Made by a program: the position numbers and the translations under genes
In this document: piece after piece, positions 13,430 through 53,500 of the stretch
Layout: the number at the start of each line of letters is the position of its first letter
Numbering within the stretch: the stretch's first letter is position 1
The notes under the pieces: generated by a model
Seen by the model: the letters and a program-made list of their open reading frames with translations, nothing else
What the model was told of the DNA's origin: nothing
Databases searched by the model: none
Assembly (NCBI GenBank): GCA_037576195.1
Contig: CM075104.1
Location: 21,592,211-21,656,210, forward strand
From: Phytoseiulus persimilis
Lineage: Eukaryota; Arthropoda; Arachnida; Mesostigmata; Phytoseiidae
Direction: 5' to 3'
DNA length: 64,000 nucleotides

Positions 13430-14201
13430 TTTCACGGCTTATCACTTACTTCTGTCGGGCAGCGTTTTCGGATGCTTTTTTCGACGAAAAGCGAGAGCAA
13501 AATTCGACCACGCCCGATCTTGAGTACACGCGGGGTCAACGTTCATATTGTTGAGGACTGGTGGAGATTCGCGCTGAACTTGTTACCAATCGCCATGAAA
13601 CGGAAGCAGCGCTTTTCTTGAGAGTAAGTCCAGGTCCTGTCGTCGCCAACAGACGATCATATTTGGTGGAGAGAAAAGACTGCCTCGCCATCGTTCACGG
13701 GAGCTTCTGTTTCAGAGGAACACTCACCACTGACGATTTTTCAAGTGTTTCATTGGACGTGTCCAATACGAGTCATTCACCGCTTGGGGATCAATCTTAT
13801 TGGGAATTTCTGGGGATAACCTGCTAGGAGAGTGAGGAATAATTTCATTGGACGTAGCTACTTTCTTATCATAGCTTTCCAGTTATGAATATTGTGTGCG
13901 TTCAGAGGCCGTAAAAGCAGGAGGATTCGGGCGAGGTGGGATTTCTTAATAAGTTGATGAAGGATCTCGCATCCTTCGGTGGGCTCGGGAGATAGGTGTT
14001 CCGAACAGTCTGTCCGGTGATGAGTACCGCCGAAATGTGGTAGAAGGTTCCAAAAAGGGGAATTATGGCAACTCAGTTATTGGCTTAACGACTGTCCCTA
14101 GATGTTTAGCGAGGCTACCCCGATCTCCGACACACACTGAGGGATGATATAGGGACTGGGCGGTGGAATAACAAGTACACTGTACAAGCATCATGTATAG
14201 C
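13430..14201. other. Spacer up to retrotransposon insertion site
   Basis: No supported gene. The last five bases (ATAGC, 14197-14201) are the left copy of the retrotransposon's target-site duplication. Confidence 0.5.
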
Positions 14202-14506
14202 TGTTACGAATGCTTAAAGTGGCATCGTAGGTATCAATGATTTCTAATAAAGAGTCCCGGCTCCGAACCTCTTCTCGCTCGGCTCTCTCGCTGGGATGCC
14301 GTTGGGTTCCTCCTCTCCCGTCCGTGGAAGCCGACGGAGAGCCCGACGTGCATCTCAGACACACACAGTCAAACTGTCGAGACCATCGCGTCTCCCGCCC
14401 AGCCGACCGAGAAAGCAGGTTTGGAGTTGGCTCGCTACCTTCTCACACTCCGGCTTTTCCTTGTGTGTTCCAGTCTACCGTACCTGGTCCCTGCCGGTCG
14501 GTAACA
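14202..14506 (+). repeat. 5' LTR of BEL/Pao element
   Basis: This is a 305-bp direct repeat bounded by TGTTAC and GTAACA, nearly identical to 21469-21773. It holds AATAAA at 14246-14251. Confidence 0.95.
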
Positions 14507-14937: not shown

Positions 14938-17900
14938 ATGGATGACAAAGGGGACAGCGATAAAGGTGACGAAACATTCACGGCAGCCATTGCCGAAAGC
15001 TCAGAAAGTAACCAGATCTTTCTTGAGAGGCAAACGCTGACCCTTAGGCGCAGCCGATTTACAAGAATCGCCTCCAGCGCCGAAGTTCTTGACGAGCAGA
15101 CGGAACATTCCCTCGCACAGCTCAAAATCGCACAACGCTTGGCACATTCGCTCGACAAAGCGTTTGCGGAATTGACCGAAGCGTTCACCCGTCTCACTGC
15201 GTCCCCGGCCATCATGGCCGACAGGAAGAAGATCCAGGCAGAATTTGCCAAACACGAGCAGTACTCCGAGAAAATGGACACAGTCGCGGAGAGCCTGCAA
15301 AGAAGAATCGACGAGCTGAAGGAGTTCCTCGGCATTCAGTCGACTCCAGGTAACACCCTCCAGCAGGAGACCTCACAAAATCAGTTCCAGATGGACCCCG
15401 AGACCCAACTCGACGAGCAGTGTCTTCAGAACGCCGCGGAGGAACCCAGCCCGACCTACTCCGAGGCCACTCAACAATACAGCGGACCCGGAGCAGACTC
15501 CTATATAGACATCGCCCCAGGTTCGAGCCCCGGAGTGCCAGCCACGTCCAGTCCCAATCCCGAGGTACCACAACAGGCGTTCCCACAACCAATCTACGTG
15601 GCACGCGACCCTGCGGCCTCCGTCCCCAGGTTCAACGGCGACCCGGTGCGCTGGGACGAGTTTTGGCACCTTTTCCAGTACTACGTCGACTCCAAACCAT
15701 TGGAAGTGACGGAGAAGTGCCGAATCCTCAAGAACGCACTCGTCGGTAAAGCGGCAAGACCAGTTTACCACCTCAAAATTTGTGCCGAAAACTACGAGTT
15801 GATGAAGGAAATCGCGCAGAAAGAGTTCCAGGACAACACCCAAGCCCGACGGACCCACGTGAGGAAGATCCACGACCTGTGCCGATCAAAGGACCTTCAC
15901 AGAGACGATAAGTTGCTCGATTTCGTTACCTCCCTCAAGCAGCACATGCAATCTCTGGTAATGTTAGGATTCGATTACGCATCGCTTACGGCGACCTTAT
16001 CACCCACCGTTCTCGAGGCGCTCCCCAGGAGCTACGTCAAAAAATTCAACGCCGCCTGGTGTGAGCAGCTCGCGCGGGGAGATCACTGCGAATTAGAACT
16101 GTTGATGAATTTTCTAGAACGCGAGGCCGACCTGATCAAGAAATGTGAAAGGTTAGGCAGAAACTACGAGGGTCAAAGCCATCAGCAAAACCGTAGAGGT
16201 CAGAATTCAAAAAACGGCCACAATTCGCGTCCAGACGAACAGAAACCGGAATACAATCAGAGATCGCAGTACTCTTTCGCCGGCGCCGTCGGATCGGTTG
16301 ACCACTCCTGCATTTTTTGCGCAAAAGATCATGCCAGCTCAAAGTGTTCAAAGAGAATGTCAAACGAGGAGAGACGACGAACGGCGGAATCGAAAAACGC
16401 GTGCTTGAGGTGTCTTCGACGCAATCACTCAGCCCAAAAATGCCGAGCGCGCGTCCCCAATTGCTCAGTCTGCAACGGCAGGCATTCGAGCTTAGTGTGC
16501 TCCCGGCAAAGAGAGCAACGGCCCGCGGATGAAGTGGTGGTGGCGTCCCCCTGCCTCCCGCTGCCCTCCGGAGACGCCGCGAAGAGCGCCTTCCTCCAGA
16601 CGGGCTATGTGTGGGTCAGCGCGGGCAAAAACCGCAAAACCATCTGCAGAGCCATCCTCGATCCGGGTAGCCAAGTTTCCATAGTCTCGGACAGGATAGT
16701 ACAATTGCTGAGGTTGAGCCCGGTAGAGCAAAGACTCACCAGTTTCCACGGAGTAGCCGGAAGTGTGTCGGACGGCCAAAAACTAAGCTTAGTCGAATTC
16801 AAAATCAGGAGTCGGTTCTCTCGCGCCGCGATTTCAGCGCGTTGCCTCGCAGTACCCAAGGTGATCGAGGGCATCCTGCCCAGGGCCGTACTGAGCGAGC
16901 CAATGCCGGAGCTGGCGGACGAGAGACTCGACTCATTCCCAGATGAGATAGACCTTCTCCTCGGCGCCGACGTACTTCCATACGTCTACCGCGGCACATA
17001 CAAAAAAATGGGCAGTCTCTTGGCGCAGCCAACCATCTTCGGATGGTTCCTATGGGGTAGCGACGGTCTGAATCAATTCGGCAACTCGGTTGTCACGTCG
17101 TTGGGTGTCATCAAGTCAGTGCGCGAAAGCAGTCAGTCATCGAGCCTAACGAACAAGCCAAAAGACAGCGCGGAATCATTGGAGTTTCTATGGGAGAACG
17201 AGCTGCTCGGAATCGAGCGGGCGGAATCCGACGACGACGCGGCATCAGCGGAAAAAATGGACAGCTTCTTTAGACAAACGGTGAAACGCACCGAAGCAGG
17301 CCGCTACATCGTGTCACTCCCTTTCAAGGCCAACTTGAACACGCTGGGAGACAACCAGAAACTAGCGTACTCCAGATTAATTCAATTCATTAAACAAGCA
17401 ACCAAGTCCCCTAAGCTTCTAGCGGCGGTCGACGCCGAGATCAAAAAATATATCGACGCAGGCTACGCCCAGATCGCGCCACCCAGGCAACCAGGCGAGC
17501 AAGCGCATTACCTCCCAATCCTCGCAGTCGCCAAAAAAGCATTCGCAGACTCGCCAGAATTCAAGGTGCGAGTCGTCAAAGACGGCGGCTCGAGAAGCAT
17601 GGACGAGGCGTCACTCAACGACTGCATGGAGCAAGGGCCTTCCCTCCTTCCCTGCATCATCAAGGTGTTGACCAATTTCAGGAGAAAACCTATTGTGCTC
17701 AACACAGACATCAAAGCTGCGTTTATGCAGTTTCTCGTCACAAAGCCACATCGCACGTACATGCGATTCTACTGGCCTCTGGGCATCGCGGAAAATCCGA
17801 ACGCTCCAATCAAAGAGTTTTGGTCCACAGTTCTGGATTTCGGAATCGTTGCAGCTCCTTGGCTATCCTGTGCAGGCATCCGATACCATCTCGACAGCGA

Positions 17901-20565
17901 GATCGCCAGCCAGCCAGAGCACGCCCCGGTCTTAGCGGAAGTCAGAGACTCTGTTTACAGGGACGACGTTTCAGTCGGAAGTGACAGCGTCGCTGAAGCA
18001 AAAAAAACCGTCGCGCTGCTAGTCGACACGTTCAAGCGAGGACACTTTCCGCTAGCCAAATGGGCAACGAATAACGAAGAAGTAGCAGATTTCATAGCAA
18101 AATTCACCAACACGCCTAGAGCGGATGTGATGTGCGGCCTAACCGACATCAAGTTTCTCGGCGTTCCTTGGGATCAAGTGACAGACCGGCTCCACATTCA
18201 ACCGGACGCGGTCAAAGACGCCCTGGTGTCGGGTCCACCTACCAAAAGAAAGTTGCTGAAAGGCCTCAGCGCGCTGTTCGATCCACTAGGGATCATAGCT
18301 CCAATAGCTATTAATTTCAAAATTCTCTGTCAGGCAGCATGGCAAGCAAAGCTCGGTTGGGACACAGTGTGGACCGGAGAGTTAGTAGAGCGGTACGCGT
18401 CGGCGGCAGCGAACCTCGACTTTGTGAAGAACATTCGAGTCGAACGCTGTCTATGCAACAGCAGATCTCCCAATACAATCCGAGAACTTCACATATTCGC
18501 CGACGCTTCATTGGCGGCCTACGCGTGCTGTGCGTACCTACGCGAGTACGCGGAAGGCAACCCCAAATCGGTCTCAGTCCGTTTCCTTTTCGCCAAAGCC
18601 AGGGTGGCACCCCTGAAAGACAAGCACACAATACACCGCCTCGAGTTAATCGCAGCGGTCCTGAGCGCGAAAATCGCTAGGAAACTCATCGACATCATCC
18701 CAGAGAAGCTACATCGCGTACACTATTACTCCGACAACTCCGCGACTCTGCATTGGATTCGAGATCCAAAACCGGATCGCTGGAAAACATTTGTCGCGAA
18801 TAGAGTCAAACAAATCAGAGAGCTTTCAGACCCCCAGGATTGGTTCTACGTGAGAACAGCCGAAAACCCCGCTGATCTCGCGTCGCGCGGATCAGCTCTC
18901 GACAAGGAAAATTTACAACAGTTCTGGCTCAGGGGCCCACCTTGGCTGGAAGCTCTCGAGCAACCGGAGACGCATGATCTAAACAAATCCGACCTGAACG
19001 ACTGCGCAGCTGAACGTAAGGTGGATTCGATCATGTCGTTGGTTGTAAAAACATCTTTCAGGCCTCTCTTCTGGAAGGATTTGTCTTCATGGACCAAAGC
19101 ACTCAGAGTCACCGCGTACGTACTCCGGTTCCCAGACGCAGCCAGAGGTCGTAAACACCATTCGACAACAGCAATCAGCGCGGACGAACTGAAGACAGCC
19201 GAATCACAACTTCTCAAGAATATACAAAGTTGTCACTTCCAGTCAGAGCTCGCAAATCAAGGCGAGAAGATCCCGAGAGCAAGCCCGCTCCACCAGCTCC
19301 GGCTGTTCGTCGCTGAAGACGGATTCCTCCGCTGCCGCTCAAGGATGGAGAAGTCGCCAAGCATGAGCTTCGACGAAAAATTCCCAATCCTCCTGCCGCA
19401 CGACGAGCATCTGGTCGCTTTGCTGGTACACCACATCCACGCCTCTGAGTGCCTTCACACGGGCGGGATCGCCAACGTGCTGCACCACCTCCGGGCAAGG
19501 TTCTTTGTGCTACGCGCAAGGGCCTTGTGCCGCTCGGTCGTGCACAGCTGCAAGACATGCGTAAGATACAACGCTCGGCCGGCATCCCTCCCAGTACCAC
19601 CTCTCCCATCCTTCCGCGTGGAGGAATCAGCACCTTTCACGGCCACCGGCATAGACTTCCTCGGACCGATTTGGATCAAGAGGAACGAAGAGAAGGTGAA
19701 ATCATACGTATTGCTCTTCACATGCGCGGTCACTCGAGCGATCCGGCTCGAGCTTGTGGCAGATATGTCTGCCGAGGAGTTTCTCCTGGCACTACGCCGT
19801 TTTTTGAGCCGCAACCCAGCGCTCCAGAGGTTAATTTCAGATAACGCAAGAACCTTCAAACGGGCCGAAAGGGAGCTCGATCTTCTGTTCAAGCACGCCC
19901 GTCAGGCGGAAGTTGGCGATTTCCTGGCCCGAAGGAAGATAACATGGCAGTACGGCACGGAGAAGGCAGCCTGGTCGAACGGATTCTTTGAGCGTTGCGT
20001 GCAAATGGTTAAGCGACCATTGAGGAAAGTCCTTGGCACCCTAGCGCTTCGGTTCCGGGAATCGGAGACAGTCTTGACCGAGATTGAGAAGGTCGTCAAC
20101 GACAGGCCTATTTCGGCAATCATCTCGGACGCGAACGAACCCAGAGCCCTCTCCCCAGCAAACCTTCTGTACGGTTACAATTCACAGGCAGGACTACCGG
20201 ACTCGAAGCAAATCATCAAAGAAGCAGAGGCTGCGACGGCGATCGTCTTCTCCGAGAGGTGGCGTCGGCAGCAAGCCACGCTCCGCGGATTCTGGAAAAC
20301 ATTTCACGTCGAGTACCTCCAACATCTGCGATCCAACCACTTCGCCACCCCGGCGCGCGATCGCCCACTCAGAGCCGGCGACGTGTGCCTCCTGCACTCA
20401 GCCGACTCCTCCAGAGCCTACTGGCCGCTTTGCGTGGTGGAGTCCCTTCACGGCGGGGAGGGAACCGATCGTCGCCATCGATCGTGTTGGATCCGCACGG
20501 CCGAGGGCAAGCGCTTGCGCCGTCCCATTCAGTTGCTGTACCCGCTAGAAGTGCGCAACTACTAA
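14938..20565 (+). CDS. BEL/Pao gag-pol polyprotein
   Basis: This is a single 1875-residue frame. A gag-like DUF1759-type region lies at about residues 230-355 (VPRFNGDPVRWDEFW). Two zinc knuckles start near residue 489 (CLRCLRRNHSAQKC, then CSVCNGRHSSLVC). An aspartic protease of the DUF1758 type lies near 572 (AILDPGSQ). Reverse transcriptase lies at about 920-1010, with NTDIKAAF and the catalytic box YRDD, where YVDD is more usual for Pao elements. RNase H starts near 1185 (IFADASLAAYACC, later YYSDNSATLHWI). Integrase has an HHCC finger near 1500 ending SCKTC. Its acidic triad sits in GIDFLGP, ISDNAR and NGFFERC; 49 residues separate the last two, a long gap of the kind seen in Pao integrases. 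The frame has no stop or frameshift, so the element may encode active enzymes. The start codon was chosen because the leader before it shows no homology. Confidence 0.93.
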   Translation: MDDKGDSDKGDETFTAAIAESSESNQIFLERQTLTLRRSRFTRIASSAEVLDEQTEHSLAQLKIAQRLAHSLDKAFAELTEAFTRLTASPAIMADRKKIQAEFAKHEQYSEKMDTVAESLQRRIDELKEFLGIQSTPGNTLQQETSQNQFQMDPETQLDEQCLQNAAEEPSPTYSEATQQYSGPGADSYIDIAPGSSPGVPATSSPNPEVPQQAFPQPIYVARDPAASVPRFNGDPVRWDEFWHLFQYYVDSKPLEVTEKCRILKNALVGKAARPVYHLKICAENYELMKEIAQKEFQDNTQARRTHVRKIHDLCRSKDLHRDDKLLDFVTSLKQHMQSLVMLGFDYASLTATLSPTVLEALPRSYVKKFNAAWCEQLARGDHCELELLMNFLEREADLIKKCERLGRNYEGQSHQQNRRGQNSKNGHNSRPDEQKPEYNQRSQYSFAGAVGSVDHSCIFCAKDHASSKCSKRMSNEERRRTAESKNACLRCLRRNHSAQKCRARVPNCSVCNGRHSSLVCSRQREQRPADEVVVASPCLPLPSGDAAKSAFLQTGYVWVSAGKNRKTICRAILDPGSQVSIVSDRIVQLLRLSPVEQRLTSFHGVAGSVSDGQKLSLVEFKIRSRFSRAAISARCLAVPKVIEGILPRAVLSEPMPELADERLDSFPDEIDLLLGADVLPYVYRGTYKKMGSLLAQPTIFGWFLWGSDGLNQFGNSVVTSLGVIKSVRESSQSSSLTNKPKDSAESLEFLWENELLGIERAESDDDAASAEKMDSFFRQTVKRTEAGRYIVSLPFKANLNTLGDNQKLAYSRLIQFIKQATKSPKLLAAVDAEIKKYIDAGYAQIAPPRQPGEQAHYLPILAVAKKAFADSPEFKVRVVKDGGSRSMDEASLNDCMEQGPSLLPCIIKVLTNFRRKPIVLNTDIKAAFMQFLVTKPHRTYMRFYWPLGIAENPNAPIKEFWSTVLDFGIVAAPWLSCAGIRYHLDSEIASQPEHAPVLAEVRDSVYRDDVSVGSDSVAEAKKTVALLVDTFKRGHFPLAKWATNNEEVADFIAKFTNTPRADVMCGLTDIKFLGVPWDQVTDRLHIQPDAVKDALVSGPPTKRKLLKGLSALFDPLGIIAPIAINFKILCQAAWQAKLGWDTVWTGELVERYASAAANLDFVKNIRVERCLCNSRSPNTIRELHIFADASLAAYACCAYLREYAEGNPKSVSVRFLFAKARVAPLKDKHTIHRLELIAAVLSAKIARKLIDIIPEKLHRVHYYSDNSATLHWIRDPKPDRWKTFVANRVKQIRELSDPQDWFYVRTAENPADLASRGSALDKENLQQFWLRGPPWLEALEQPETHDLNKSDLNDCAAERKVDSIMSLVVKTSFRPLFWKDLSSWTKALRVTAYVLRFPDAARGRKHHSTTAISADELKTAESQLLKNIQSCHFQSELANQGEKIPRASPLHQLRLFVAEDGFLRCRSRMEKSPSMSFDEKFPILLPHDEHLVALLVHHIHASECLHTGGIANVLHHLRARFFVLRARALCRSVVHSCKTCVRYNARPASLPVPPLPSFRVEESAPFTATGIDFLGPIWIKRNEEKVKSYVLLFTCAVTRAIRLELVADMSAEEFLLALRRFLSRNPALQRLISDNARTFKRAERELDLLFKHARQAEVGDFLARRKITWQYGTEKAAWSNGFFERCVQMVKRPLRKVLGTLALRFRESETVLTEIEKVVNDRPISAIISDANEPRALSPANLLYGYNSQAGLPDSKQIIKEAEAATAIVFSERWRRQQATLRGFWKTFHVEYLQHLRSNHFATPARDRPLRAGDVCLLHSADSSRAYWPLCVVESLHGGEGTDRRHRSCWIRTAEGKRLRRPIQLLYPLEVRNY

Positions 20566-21468
20566 TCATATTTTTCGATATTTAGTCGGCCCTCCGGGAC
20601 GGGCAGTGCCGCGTCGCCATCATCGGGCCTAGGTATACCTAAGATAAATAAAAAAAATAAATGAGGCCCGCACCTCAGGCCTGACGGAGGTCGGTGTCAA
20701 ACCGACCGACCGTCAGCCGCAGGGCGGCCTCAAAACCGGCCAGCCATATTTCAGGCTGGGCGGATCGTCGGCTGGGCCGACTCAAGGCGAGGTATTTGGC
20801 CCGCTCCTCAGCGGCGAGCGTCAGCCAAGCTGACCCTGCGAGCGCACGGGCCTCCTCCGCCGAGAGCCCGGCCACCTCCGGGTTGTGAACCCGCAGCCAC
20901 AGCAGAAGCACCCCCGTGGGGGAACTGGCGAAAGATCGACTGCGTCGAGTGGAGCGGTCCATCGCGTAATGAAAAATAATCGTCGTACCCTTTCGATCCC
21001 TAGAGTTCAGGCGGGAGAAAGAGTGCAGATATTCAGGTCACTTCGGCACATCCGGCTCACATCGAATGCGTTCGATCGGGCGTTGGCGTTCCGGATTCGT
21101 TCTCGACTCTCGGGAGCTGAAGCTAAAGTCGCGTCGTCTCTTCTCGTGAAATGCGCTCGTCCATAGGTAGGCTGCAGGGAGGTAACCGGAAAAGAGCTTC
21201 TTTCAGTGCTTGGTGGAACGCACCGCTCCCCGGACGCCCGGTTCCCGGCTGACGTCCTCACCACGGACACGCCGCCCCCTCCCCCGTGCCGGAACGGAAA
21301 AGCGTTTGCGACGCGCCGAGTCCCCGACGGTCGCGCAGAGTCCGCACCATCCGCATGTTCCCGCCATTGCACGAGCCCATTATTATGTACTCCGAGGTAG
21401 CGATCTGCGATCGCTCTCACCCCCCTCGGCCCTGGTTGTCATTTCGAGCGTACACGCTCCCGGGGGAA
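20566..21468. other. Retrotransposon region between pol and 3' LTR
   Basis: About 900 bp without plus-strand coding signal. AATAAA motifs on the plus strand lie near 20645 and 20656. An antisense ORF occupies 20675-20962. The region ends with the polypurine tract at about 21462-21468. Confidence 0.6.
20675..20962 (-). CDS. Antisense ORF inside retrotransposon, HMG-box-like
   Basis: A 95-codon ATG-to-TGA frame lies on the strand opposite gag-pol. Residues about 14-65 follow a single HMG-box pattern: helix 1 with hydrophobic and basic residues (PTGVLLLWLRVHNPEV), helix 2 starting at LSAEEARALAG with the conserved tryptophan in SAWLTL, and helix 3 starting EERAKYLAL then basic SRPSRR. The layout P..FL.F.R...P.LS..E....A..W..LS.EE...Y is that of HMG boxes, including the short boxes of insect sperm chromatin proteins (comparison from memory). 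The N-terminus is basic and serine-rich (MDRSTRRSRSF). About 30 residues after the box are unassigned. I see no promoter or intron for it. It is either a captured host gene or an element-encoded accessory protein; chance similarity in GC-rich DNA is the main alternative. Confidence 0.5.
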   Translation of the reverse strand: MDRSTRRSRSFASSPTGVLLLWLRVHNPEVAGLSAEEARALAGSAWLTLAAEERAKYLALSRPSRRSAQPEIWLAGFEAALRLTVGRFDTDLRQA

Positions 21469-21773
21469 TGTTACGAATGCTTAAAGTGGCATCGTAGGTA
21501 TCAATGATTTCTAATAAAGAGTCCCGGCTCCGAACCTCTTCTCGCTCGGCTCTCTCGCTGGGATGCCGTTGGGTTCCTCCTCTCCCGTCCGTGGAAGCCG
21601 ACGGAGAGCCCGACGTGCATCTCAGACACACACAGTCGAACTGTCGAGACCATCGCGTCTCCCGCCCAGCCGACCGAGAAAGCAGGTTTGGAGTTGGCTC
21701 GCTACCTTCTCACACTCCGGCTTTTCCTTGTGTGTTCTAGTCTACCGTACCTGGTCCCTGCCGGTCGGTAACA
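21469..21773 (+). repeat. 3' LTR of BEL/Pao element
   Basis: 305 bp, matching the 5' LTR except at two sites. It carries AATAAA at 21513-21518 as the likely polyadenylation signal. Confidence 0.95.
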
Positions 21774-23978
21774 ATAGCTCTTCACGAGACACTCGTTCGT
21801 GGTTTGGCTTGCTTCGCCTCCGTATCCGACTCCATAGCAGCCTTCAATCGGATCTTACCCACGTAGCGTCTAGAGAAACCTTGATTGGAACGAGCGGTAC
21901 CGAATCAGAATAAATCGAGCGAACATCGCCATCTGATTCTCCGGAAGTCTGCGGAGTCCGTTGCATTCGAGACGGGCTCGCCGAGAATTTTTTCGAGCTG
22001 ATCGCATGATTGACGGTTACCTGCAACCGCGAAGTTTCGGAGTTAAACACAGCAGTGGAAATAGAAACGCGATTCCAACTCATGAGCTGGTCTCTGAGCT
22101 CGGATTTACCCTTTCTACCTGCCCGTGGGCGCGTACACTCAGGGATCATCCAGTTACGTCTCGTGGATTCATTGGAGGCCGGATATACACGGGGGAACTT
22201 TCACGCCGCTCAGCATCGGTTGGTCCTTCCTCGGAAAATATCTCTAACATCTGTATCCATCTCATACTGTGTGCTTAGACCAAACAGCTGTGTCGCGAAT
22301 CGATTCGCCATCAGGGGTCGAAAATCCTTACCCAAGGTTCTCTTGGGTTCCCCGAGCTATGATTCCTTCCTCTGTCCTCATTGGAACTGGTGTTGTCAAC
22401 GTTCCGGCTCAAGAACCGCCCTTGGTATTCGAAAATGAACGCAGGGGTTATGCTGGCGTGTCACCCCTTTAGTTCCTATTCGACATGCGCGTTGCTCGTC
22501 TCGCATGCCGCGCGAGACTGACAATGAGATGAGTACGAAATTCTAACGGGACCAGATCGGTAGGGATGATTCCTACCAGTAAGCGACGAATATCATCATC
22601 ACCTTCCATTCTCCCGTTATCGGTCCTGCCAATACGGCAACTAAGGAGATCGCGATTATCCACGCCCGATTCCTCGGTTCTAATCTGATTCTCACCCGCG
22701 ATTACTCCATCTACTTCCTTGGACTTCACTTCCCCATTCCAGTCCCGAAACTATCCCTCGAACGACTCCGACGTCGAGGTACAGTAGTAGGTTCGTCGTC
22801 TTGCTATGCAGGACAGCGGAACAGGCCAAGAAGCAGCAGTTCGGAAGGAAAAGCTCCATACCGCAAGCTCAATCAGTTGGCTTCCATCCTTTGATAGACA
22901 CCGCCAGGAGCAAACCTCGTGGGTCCTAAATGGCAGGTGGACCGTTCTTCCGAGGAACTCGGTATTTCTGCAGATTCCCAGAGTTCAGGGAAGCCAGGAG
23001 TTGCATCCAGATAGGATGATGGAACGCCTCGAAGCGGAACCCCGTCATTGGTTGTTTCTGTAGCCTCATGATCGCAGGTATGGAAAGACGGAAACATTAG
23101 GAAATCCAACCGCACGGTTCCTCGACCAGACCGCGTCAACGAAGCAGACGCTCCTTCCGAGCTCCAAACCGCTGATTCAGCTCAGGATCAGGAAATAAGT
23201 CAGCATGAACAGGCCCGATTGGCCAATTTTAGCGCATGAACAGTTATCCGGCATAGCCACCGTCATACCATATGTAAAGAGGTCTTCAGACCGATTGCAA
23301 ATCCAAGCCTTTCACGGTCATCGGACGCAGCCACTCCCGGGGCAAGCCCTATGGTGGAGCGGTTCCAAAAAAGAATGAAACCCTGAGTTTCTATTTGAAA
23401 GAATGTGGCATGGGTACAACTGTTATTCTCGCTCTCAAACATTGCTCGCAAATGACGAACAGGAAACTCATATCGCTTCGGCGAGGTAAGAATTATGGTG
23501 GGCTGTGGCTTGTTGGCAGATCAAGTGGCTGTATTGACAAGATCGCCGCCGGCGGTATCCGCATTAGATGACTAAACGCCCCAGAGCTATCCGCGGAAAT
23601 TATGTTCTTCTGTGATTGTTCAGTACAGTATTTTGACTTGCTGGTGGGAAGGGCCTAGAAAATCAGGAAAGGGATTTTCAAGGATTGATCTGGATCTCTC
23701 AACGGCACTGCAACGCAACTGAGCTTCTAGGTCACACGAACATCAACGGCTGTCCATCGAAAGTATCGCTTCGTCTCTTGACACCGGAATCCTTTGAGAT
23801 CGGAGAGAGCTTTTCCAGCTTCAAGCAGGATCGAGCTACGGATAGCATCGGATACGCCGAAGGAATCATGATTGAAGCTCTGCGCATCGGAAGAATGCCG
23901 TTCTATTGCACGTCCGATGTTTCCCAGCGAGCCATTCAAGCACACGGTTCTGGCTAGAGACTTCTCCTAACGCAATAA
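21774..23978. other. No supported gene
   Basis: Short open frames only, without domains or coherent splice sites. ATAGC at 21774-21778 is the right target duplication of the retrotransposon. Confidence 0.45.
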
Positions 23979-50553: not shown

Positions 50554-53500
50554 GTGAGTATGAATCTTTCAACGAAGAGCAAATGTCCCATGGGGACGGG
50601 ATGGGAACCACTTCCGAAGGAGAGCCGAACGGTTCTTCCTTCGGGGTCGAGCCGGAGTTGCAGATTGGACGCCCGAAATCTCTGCGACCCACGTCGCAAT
50701 TTCTGTGAGAGCGATTTTCCGATGTCACGGGCCTTCCCTGATGCGGCTCACGGAAGGAGTTGGCCAAGCTTTTCGCGACCCGTTTTTTTCGGTCAGTGTT
50801 GTTAATAGGCAGGGGGCAACCTTGATCTGACTACATCGATAACGGCTCTCTGGGATGATTTGTGGACTTTATCGCGGATTGGCCGCCAGAAGTTCTCCGA
50901 CGAAATTCAAGAGCCCAGTAAGCTAGGGGCGGCTCCGCAAGGCCCTTAGGACGAAAAAAAGTGCTCGCGCCCTTCGAACGCATAACTGCCTCGTCTGTCT
51001 ACGGCTACGAATAATTACTACTAGCATGTAGAAAAGCGCCACCAGGACCGGTGGCAGCAGCCACTGCCGTAACGGCGGAACAAATTGAAACGTTTTTATA
51101 TTTCTACGGTCGTTTTTCCCAACCTCGGCTCCAATACTGGTGGCTATTAATGATGAATGAGCGTTACGCCTCTTCAAAACAGGAACACGGGCTTGATTCG
51201 CTTCCCCCTACCGCCACCGAAAGTGACATAGTCTGGCTCATACAACGCCACAGGTCTTTCCAGCGTGGGAAACTCGTGAAAACTCGGATCTCACGTCCGA
51301 GGATCCGAGAGACAGAGCGAGAATTCGAAATCTCGTCCGGACTGGTCGCCTGGTAGTCCTCTCCGGTGCTTTGTCTTCCGTGCGACCCCGGCTCGAGCCC
51401 GGAGGTGTTTTGAAGCGCCATCAACCTGTCACTCGCGAGTGCTACACTCGATACTCTGCTTCGATCGACTATGCTCGCACAGAACACAAATGAGCTGGCC
51501 AACAGAGCATCCAGCGTTTCCCTCGGAGCAGGTGTTTTATAAATCGATTCCATCTGAGAACGGTCTATGGAAAGATTGCGTGTCTTCAGCCGCGTGTGCA
51601 ACCGAGTTCGCTCCGAGGATGCCATTGTTTCTCCCGCGATTTCATGCTTCTTGAAAGCCACAATCACGATCACTTTTTTTGTTCCCGTGGACAAGACGGA
51701 GGAATGAGCCTTCCCTTTTACTCATTTCCATATTACTCAACGATCAAGGTCGAAGCTGAAACTCTTCTGTGCAACTGACTTCTTGGTACCTCCCGGCTAA
51801 TGAACGCGTCAAGTACTTTTGATGACGGCACGGTTTGAATGCTGAATTGACACTTCTTCCTAATTAATCAGACTCCGAATCTTTGTCTCGGCGGAACAAC
51901 ACGAGGTCTCCTGAAAAGATGTCCTGCGAATCACATTTCTCGGAGCTGAGAGCGTTGGGGCAACCAGGGTTTCGAGCTTGAATCAAACCTCCATTAGAAT
52001 CTTTCATGAACCGCAGCCAAAACAGATTAAGTCAACTCAGCTGGACACAATTAAAACCAGAATTCTGAGCTGCAGTCAACGAGCGAGGACTTGGCGCGGA
52101 GCACAAAAGAGTTCGCTGCATGCAATGCTGGAGAGGAAAACAGCGGCGACGTCTCCAAGGTGACTCTCGTCGACCGCATGCTCATGTGGCGGCGATGACG
52201 ACGCACCAACGCATCCAAGCGAAGAGCTGAGTGAGGTGGAAGAGCGGGAAACAAAGACTCAGACCACGAAGCCTCTGGAATGGTTCCTCTGGCGCGCCTC
52301 ACCCACGTCCGGCCGGATATCCAGAATTCATTGATTACAATTACGTTAATCTATCTGATCGACCTCGCTCCGATCGATCACGTCGAGCGATTACGGGTCT
52401 TCGCGAACAAGAATAACGTAGAACGAAAGAGAAGCGACCATCCATTGTGACTATTCAGCCTTCGAAAATCAACTCCACATAGAACGCAGTGAGTTCTGTC
52501 ACCATTCGCTGACTCTCGATGGGGAGACCCTGGAGAATGATTACGAAAGCCGCTAGAGAAGGGTGTTTGTGAAGGATTCGCCGTCCCCAGCAACTCATCG
52601 GTCGCTACTGAGTGCGTTCAGTTCTTCAACGGTGAGAGATTCAAGGTCGAAAAGGTCTCCTAAGCTCCGTCGCTCCCCCTCTTATTGCCTCGTTGCTGAG
52701 CAGAGTCACGATCTGGCACAAAGAGAACATTTGCGTCGAGGCACCGAAAATCATCGGGGCAGATCACTCTGTATTACACCCGTAAGAGGAACGCCATGAG
52801 CCTGTATCAGAAAGCCATGGATCTTACTTTACGTACGTCTATAATTACTCAATTTCCAATGCCGGCCCGCCGGTCCGACGGTTCTGAGCGCGGTGACAAG
52901 TGAACACTGTATTGAGCAATTCGGTGAAAAATATTTCTGCCAGTAATTGGTGAGCGCGTGGGTTTCGACGAGCGAAAACAGATTGATATGAGGCGCACAG
53001 TATGTGCGATATCATTTTTCAAAACTGGACTTGTCAATGTCAAGATTGCCATCGACGCGAGTTGATTGAAAATCTATCGGTTTTTCAAGAGTCTTCGCTC
53101 CGATAATTGGAATCTACTCTGACCAACGGCAAGTTGACTCTTTACTCGTAGCGGTGTATCGACGGAGCGCTAGATATTGCCACTGTTCCGGAGGGAACCT
53201 TCGTCCCGTGGATTCGAGCTCTCGATTCTTCTCGAGTCCGCGGATCATAGAACTATCTTAACTCGTACTTGGTCCATATCTCCTCCAGTGCGAAGATAGC
53301 CATATCTCATTTCCACAGCACTGAATTGAGTTCGGACGACCTCGGCTCGCAATGGAAAAGGTCGCTCCAGAAGGAATATAGAAATGAAGAGCGAGACAAA
53401 AAGAGCAAATTAACCGAAGATGAACCAAAGGCGAGGCCGACTTGAGAAAGGAGAGCATTCAAACGAAAGCGCCCTGTTTCATCATCTCTTGGAAGCGTTG

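Follow-up and report, generated by a model that had tools for sequence, protein, structure and literature searches.

The antisense frame of a BEL/Pao element

The window, a stretch of 64,000 nucleotides of the Phytoseiulus persimilis contig CM075104.1, holds a young BEL/Pao retrotransposon with an open reading frame (ORF) on its antisense strand between gag-pol and the 3' long terminal repeat (LTR). The two LTRs of the element, 305 bp each, had 2 differences between them, and the element was flanked on both sides by ATAGC, a target duplication of 5 bp (Table 1). The gag-pol frame was split into five pieces for the Pfam search, which gave matches to Peptidase_A17 (Pao, 6.6e-42), DUF1759 (gag, 9e-15) and DUF5641 (1.8e-12), all in one frame, and matches below the cut-off to aspartyl protease (Asp protease), reverse transcriptase (RVT_1) and H2C2. 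With a Pao-type peptidase, the gag domain DUF1759, DUF5641, the LTR pair and the target duplication, the carrier is a BEL/Pao element.

Table 1. Coordinates of the BEL/Pao element and its parts in the window
Feature	Position	Strand	Remarks
5' LTR (TGTTACG...GGTAACA)	14202..14506	+	305 bp; preceded by target duplication ATAGC at 14197-14201
gag-pol, single frame, 1875 codons, BEL/Pao type	14938..20565	+	Pfam domains
spacer, gag-pol stop to antisense gene stop	20566..20674	.	A/T-rich run
antisense accessory gene type A, 95 codons	20675..20962	-	TGA at 20677-20675
region upstream of antisense gene, reaching 3' LTR	20963..21468	-	candidate antisense promoter/leader site
3' LTR	21469..21773	+	target duplication ATAGC at 21774-21778 directly after

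The antisense frame, referred to here as type A, is complete from ATG to TGA and lies exactly where the initial annotation had placed it, before the 3' LTR. That annotation described it as a frame opposite gag-pol. It does run against the direction of gag-pol, but it does not overlap it, since the whole frame fits into the 903 nt that separate the gag-pol stop (20565) from the 3' LTR. Its place after pol and before the 3' LTR, together with its strand, makes it an antisense accessory ORF. A 137-codon frame (21007-21420) was considered as a possible second antisense exon; on inspection by eye it seemed frame-shifted in sibling copies.

A genome search with the type A ORF returned 11 matches: eight copies (the window's included), two pieces of one split copy and one weak chance match, which makes nine copies in all. 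Six of the eight copies were free of stops and the other two had one stop each. Among the stop-free copies, L014 had two in-frame deletions of 21 and 9 nt, L015 differed at the C-terminus and L016 had lost its N-terminus to an insertion. The type A core of L016, without its N-terminus, lies within a 450-codon tandem-repeat frame (SESPLQSWEVMLRL) and adjoins the inserted stretch. The region from the ORF to the LTR matched at 13 places in the genome, mostly with 80-99% identity and at two places with 70-72%. Nine of the 13 places had a match to the ORF, and four did not (C3:24583484, C1:43093679, C1:2089629 and C4:19133562). In the type A element piece at G000:C1:43093679-43094413 just 11 bases separated the integrase match from the pre-LTR match, as an excision of the antisense gene would leave them.

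The length of the ORF was ordinary and no better than chance, as an ATG-initiated ORF of at least 95 codons turned up in 515 of 1000 dinucleotide-shuffled versions of this 903-nt region. The evidence for a gene is its conservation. We compared two groups of type A copies (five against three, with the split copy omitted) for nonsynonymous (dN) and synonymous (dS) divergence. The claimed frame showed a dN of 0.119, a dS of 0.374 and a dN/dS of 0.32, with 156, 151 and 323 changes at the first, second and third codon positions, respectively, and in the same comparison the other five frames gave a dN/dS of 0.64-1.83. Single pairs across the groups gave 0.22-0.33 for the 12 pairs without L016 and 0.44-0.50 for the three pairs with L016, where the N-terminus is insert. 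Within the smaller group dN/dS was 0.40-0.75, calculated from few changes. For comparison, integrase dN/dS was 0.12-0.20 in three type A pairs and 0.12-0.24 in six element pairs overall. The ORF was found in most family copies (a match at 9 of 13 flank places) with codon changes that point to purifying selection, and the check in sibling copies that the initial annotation had proposed came out in favour of a gene, both in the stop-free copies and in the group ratio.

Related antisense genes and their exchange

At least seven antisense types (A-G), related or equivalent in position, were recognised in this genome, and the six besides type A sat at the corresponding site of related BEL lineages. 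The survey 3' of pol covered the best 30 of 151 integrase matches, all 30 of which were inspected, and at several of these loci the corresponding site was taken by a longer antisense frame that stopped approximately 60 to 120 bases beyond the stop of pol. Types B, C and D were 133-172 codons long (11 counted), and most of their members had in common the motif SPLGxF...LRxAxRxVWD...R...ARRxxTxN. Intact copies of these types ended in the C-terminus (G/E)(T/S)QTxAxxMGL. The (G/E)(T/S)QT part, conserved in the type B-D genes of L059, L061, L065, L066 and L072 and missing from type A, presumably resembles the binding motif of dynein light chain (LC8). Types E, F and G, from more distant lineages, had in common the motif (S/T)PxGxL...R...GCP. 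The type F genes (L088-L090 and L095) also carried AEEAARLEQER repeats, which were coiled-coil-like and varied in number. The proteins were rich in arginine and poor in lysine, with at most one lysine per protein in the 12 proteins counted.

The position relative to integrase was checked for type D and type E matches. The type D search (E up to 1) gave 37 matches, 30 of which were antisense and within 2.5 kb 3' of an integrase match among those listed, none in sense, and seven without integrase among the matches listed. The type E search gave 31 matches, which fell into the same three classes as 17, none and 14, and the type B search gave 40 matches.

Profile comparisons linked type A to both other sets. 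Type A against types B-D gave a P of 0.0034 (reached by 1 of 200 shuffles; 0.016 and 4 of 400 with an earlier alignment), type A against types E-G gave 6.4e-4 (0 of 200) and types A-D against types E-G gave 1.7e-4 (0 of 200). Common descent of all seven types is likely, resting partly on their position. In the integrase tree type A formed one group and types B-D one group, with L054 just outside the type A group. Three databases were also searched. The Pfam search with types A-G showed only a weak unrelated match to DUF6257 (one of the nine members of the set, E 0.077), PHROGs showed only three weak unnamed matches for nine members of types A-D, and in scans of IMG/VR with the B-D and E-G profiles none of the 92 and 71 pattern matches, respectively, was confirmed, so no outside relatives were found there.

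The dN/dS of types B-G was mostly below 0.5. B1-B2 gave 0.21 and D1-D3 gave 0.27, C1-C2 showed a dN of 0.20 with a dS of 2.44, and C2-C3 had 14 synonymous against 3 nonsynonymous changes. Ratios from dN and dS of pairs were 0.17 for type E, 0.07-0.17 for type F and 0.06 for type G; the six-frame controls cover types A-D, and these E-G ratios stand without control frames. The exceptions were the near-identical pair B2-B3, with 3.5 synonymous and 13.5 nonsynonymous changes and a ratio of 1.5, and D1-D2 with 0.44. The sense frame that shares its third position with the antisense frame also scored low, but it had stops in every pair tabulated. Third codon positions of the antisense frame took most of the changes in types A, B, C, E, F and G. 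Each of types A-G has a codon signature of purifying selection, and on these substitution patterns the antisense ORF almost certainly represents a family of protein-coding genes.

The elements L059 (type C) and L061 (type D) were nearly the same except in this gene. There were 5 changes between them in 440 pol codons (pol dS 0.009), and the dS of their antisense genes was 1.26, with 99-100% identity regained from approximately +600 through the LTR. The switch points lay in the last ~50 bases of pol and at approximately +555 to +600, just past the antisense start codon. Since the LTR pair of L061 was identical over 294 bp, the exchange concerns recently mobile elements.

Among ten elements we tabulated 40 pairs, 36 of which joined unlike types. 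In the unlike-type pairs the cassettes showed 53-57% identity (69-70% for C1 against C2), and the identity of the same pairs was 91-100% in the backbone, 77-99% in the pre-LTR regions and 87-100% in the LTRs. The four like-type pairs showed a cassette identity of 87-99%. The table omits L064, L071 and L074 of the group, and at least four like-type pairs are also absent from it. L063 was scored as C1, its cassette being 98% like that of L066, and the L065-L072 pol comparison was excluded for an apparently shifted frame (295 nonsynonymous changes). From these identities we consider it very probable that cassette exchange is real and that types B, C and D were exchanged as cassettes among near-identical backbones.

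Resemblance of type A to HMG boxes

The initial annotation took the type A product for a compact high-mobility-group (HMG) box with a single tryptophan and basic residues, and linked it to sperm chromatin. The protein has three tryptophans (22, 46 and 73), and arginine accounts for almost all of its basic residues (13 R, 1 K). A single-sequence structure model (predicted local distance difference test score, pLDDT, 72; predicted template modelling score, pTM, 0.54) showed four helices at residues 15-26, 35-48, 51-59 and 70-94. In the reading of the initial annotation the protein would be a genuine HMG box in shortened form, which bends DNA and assists the element in entering or choosing chromatin. 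This reading had points on both sides.

In the PDB search with phmmer the type A protein found LEF1 first (E 0.15), the unrelated PrnB second and SOX-30 third (E 0.86). The profile of type A again found LEF1 first (0.13), with an unrelated protein second, and the A-D profile found a UBF box as its sole match (E 1). HMG boxes are rare in this set, as one HMG query finds 59 of its 177,635 sequences. The profile of types B-D alone gave three matches in the PDB search, none of them an HMG box, and the PDB search with types E-G found no HMG box. Foldseek with the type A model gave 38 matches, none at E 0.001 and all with E above 1, with Abf2p first and UBF box 4 giving the best query template modelling (TM) score of 0.41.

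Alignment by hhalign with the HMG boxes of the host (22 domains) gave a P of 3e-4 for type A and 3.1e-4 for types B-D, reached by none of 400 column shuffles in each case, and showed no resemblance for E, F, G and E-G (P 0.08-0.36). Scores on the host HMG model were compared with those of 5000 shuffles, among which 5 reached the score of the window protein, 0 that of L016, 5 that of L015 and 46 that of L013 (counts are per 5000, of which 3985 had a score). On the same model another of the 532 frames in the window, at 53251-53442 (+), slightly outscored the antisense ORF (best domain 7.1 against 6.5 bits).

Type A shares the helix pattern P..G....W...W...E+..Y with the HMG-box domain (PF00505, which includes LEF1, SOX, UBF and Abf2), with a weak profile match. 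It differs in having a predicted third helix that breaks off at residue 59, a predicted fourth helix, arginine in place of lysine and relatives in types E-G without likeness, and no HMG model of Pfam (PF00505 or related) matched the ORF product at E 10. The weak profile similarity of types A-D suggests at best a distant relationship, and a true HMG fold, with the chromatin role that would follow, is doubtful. The claim of an element-borne HMG-box gene holds in part, the antisense gene of the BEL/Pao element being real and its HMG identity putative. The sperm-chromatin link found no support; the Protamine_like model (PF06382) matched nothing in the genome, but it matched nothing in the control sets either, and the ORF itself had no Pfam match.

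Five short HMG-box frames (L028, L035, L041, L042 and L045) were seen within ~150 kb at G000:C2 48.71-48.86 Mb. They were similar in type (AYFLWM..NR.RIK.ENP / YxVWxxxNRxRI) and are possibly a local cluster of small host HMG-box genes.

Possible role of the exchanged gene

The explanation that we tentatively favour as a whole, although we hold it with less than even confidence, is an exchanged antisense accessory gene that encodes a type-specific nuclear regulator. A promoter in or beside the 3' LTR would give the gene an antisense mRNA of its own, and the small, arginine-rich, helical protein would act in the nucleus, regulating the element or a host factor. The pre-LTR region is little altered when the product changes, so an exchange may leave promoter and leader in place. 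The exchange of cassettes would reflect type specificity, and an element that changes type could evade resident copies that repress it or compete with it, or a restriction factor of the host. The regulator as described here is possible and is put forward with more reserve than the explanation as a whole.

In animals, most descriptions of LTR retrotransposons give a gag-pol unit to which env may or may not be added. Searches of the open-access literature showed no BEL/Pao antisense gene at the level of their listings, as the initial annotation had supposed, and no such cassette exchange, which is not proof of absence as subscription papers were mostly outside their scope. In the sections available of the accounts of plant LTR elements, the antisense ORFs that follow pol and precede the 3' LTR have no known function, and some of their products are nuclear (PMC7264820), and Retand elements have at that place a TRP28 domain with predicted DNA binding (PMC11963269). 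These plant ORFs (Grande gene23, RIRE2, Retand TRP28 and PvRetro13) are alike in place and strand and conserved within families, and a nuclear or DNA-binding role is suspected for some (PMC7264820, PMC11963269, as far as excerpted). They belong to other element groups in another kingdom, and types A-G have no TRP28 or SMC domain in Pfam. Exchange of unlike types in one backbone was not met in the same portions of these accounts (PMC7264820, PMC11963269), and the part of PMC8220671 at hand mentions antisense ORFs only in general terms.

HBZ of HTLV-1 and APH-2 of HTLV-2 are regulators read in antisense from the 3' portion of a retroelement (PMC8622228, in part), as the BEL antisense gene would be. 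HBZ differs in being a retroviral gene for a bZIP protein, and the likeness considered here is one of position and strand. LTR elements of bdelloid rotifers carry a varied ORF3 (DEDDy, GDSL, CC and TM types) shared between retroelement types, but they are retrovirus-like lineages and their ORF3s are not described as antisense BEL/Pao genes in the available part of that account (PMC5408684).

The cassettes can also be compared with the immunity regions of phages, by analogy and with the regulator role in BEL elements putative. Lambdoid phages exchange immunity regions, so that near-identical backbones carry unlike regulator cassettes. The antisense gene might in the same way be a type-specific nuclear repressor or competitor, with active backbones spreading again after a cassette swap. 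We consider this unlikely; if true, unlike types would coexist in one genome with their backbones staying almost identical. An antisense gene that is conserved in several BEL lineages and passes between near-identical elements would amount to a layer of regulation or counter-defence that standard annotation overlooks. The natural matched elements, which differ almost only in this gene, make self-limitation of retrotransposons and its specificity testable.

Several results weigh against a type-specific nuclear regulator. The antisense gene was absent from L054-L056, where the 3' region is short. L076 and L078 were without ~900 bp of L075, with flanks mostly 93-100% identical, and since L078 retains the final 27 codons of the gene, loss is the favoured account of that absence. 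Given these elements and the four of 13 type A flanks without an ORF match, the gene appears dispensable for some copies, at least with help in trans. The proteins of types B-D were weakly basic or neutral (isoelectric point 7.0-9.8), which does not favour nucleic-acid binding. The direct profile comparison of types B-D with types E-G gave no signal (P 0.15, 31 of 200 shuffles), and the link between them therefore runs via type A only. On the antisense strand no AATAAA or ATTAAA occurred within 18501-21780, which leaves the end of an antisense mRNA unplaced. Exchanged types differ little in the upstream region, and any type-specific operator would therefore have to sit inside the cassette or elsewhere. 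The exchange itself could reflect an arms race or drift and not regulation.

Under an arms race, the protein would block a silencing or restriction factor of the host, and types would differ as the host target evolves. Counter-defence is a frequent role of small retroelement accessory proteins, and the cassettes predate their present backbones by far, which fits diversifying pressure on one accessory gene. Selection within types was mostly purifying, however, and dS is near saturation, and we regard an arms race as rather improbable. That the antisense RNA matters and the frame is incidental is a far weaker proposal. Silencing by small RNAs can be triggered by the antisense RNAs that retroelements produce (PMC7264820, in the part available), but a role for the RNA would leave unexplained the third-position bias in six of the seven types, and we give it very little weight. 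A chance open frame in G+C-rich DNA, for which the length would be ordinary, was rejected on the codon evidence of dN/dS in seven types and the equal position in many elements, and has next to no probability.

Two AATAAA signals occurred on the sense strand at 20647 and 20656, just before the antisense gene, and another at 21513 in the 3' LTR. Conceivably the sense RNA is polyadenylated early at such signals.
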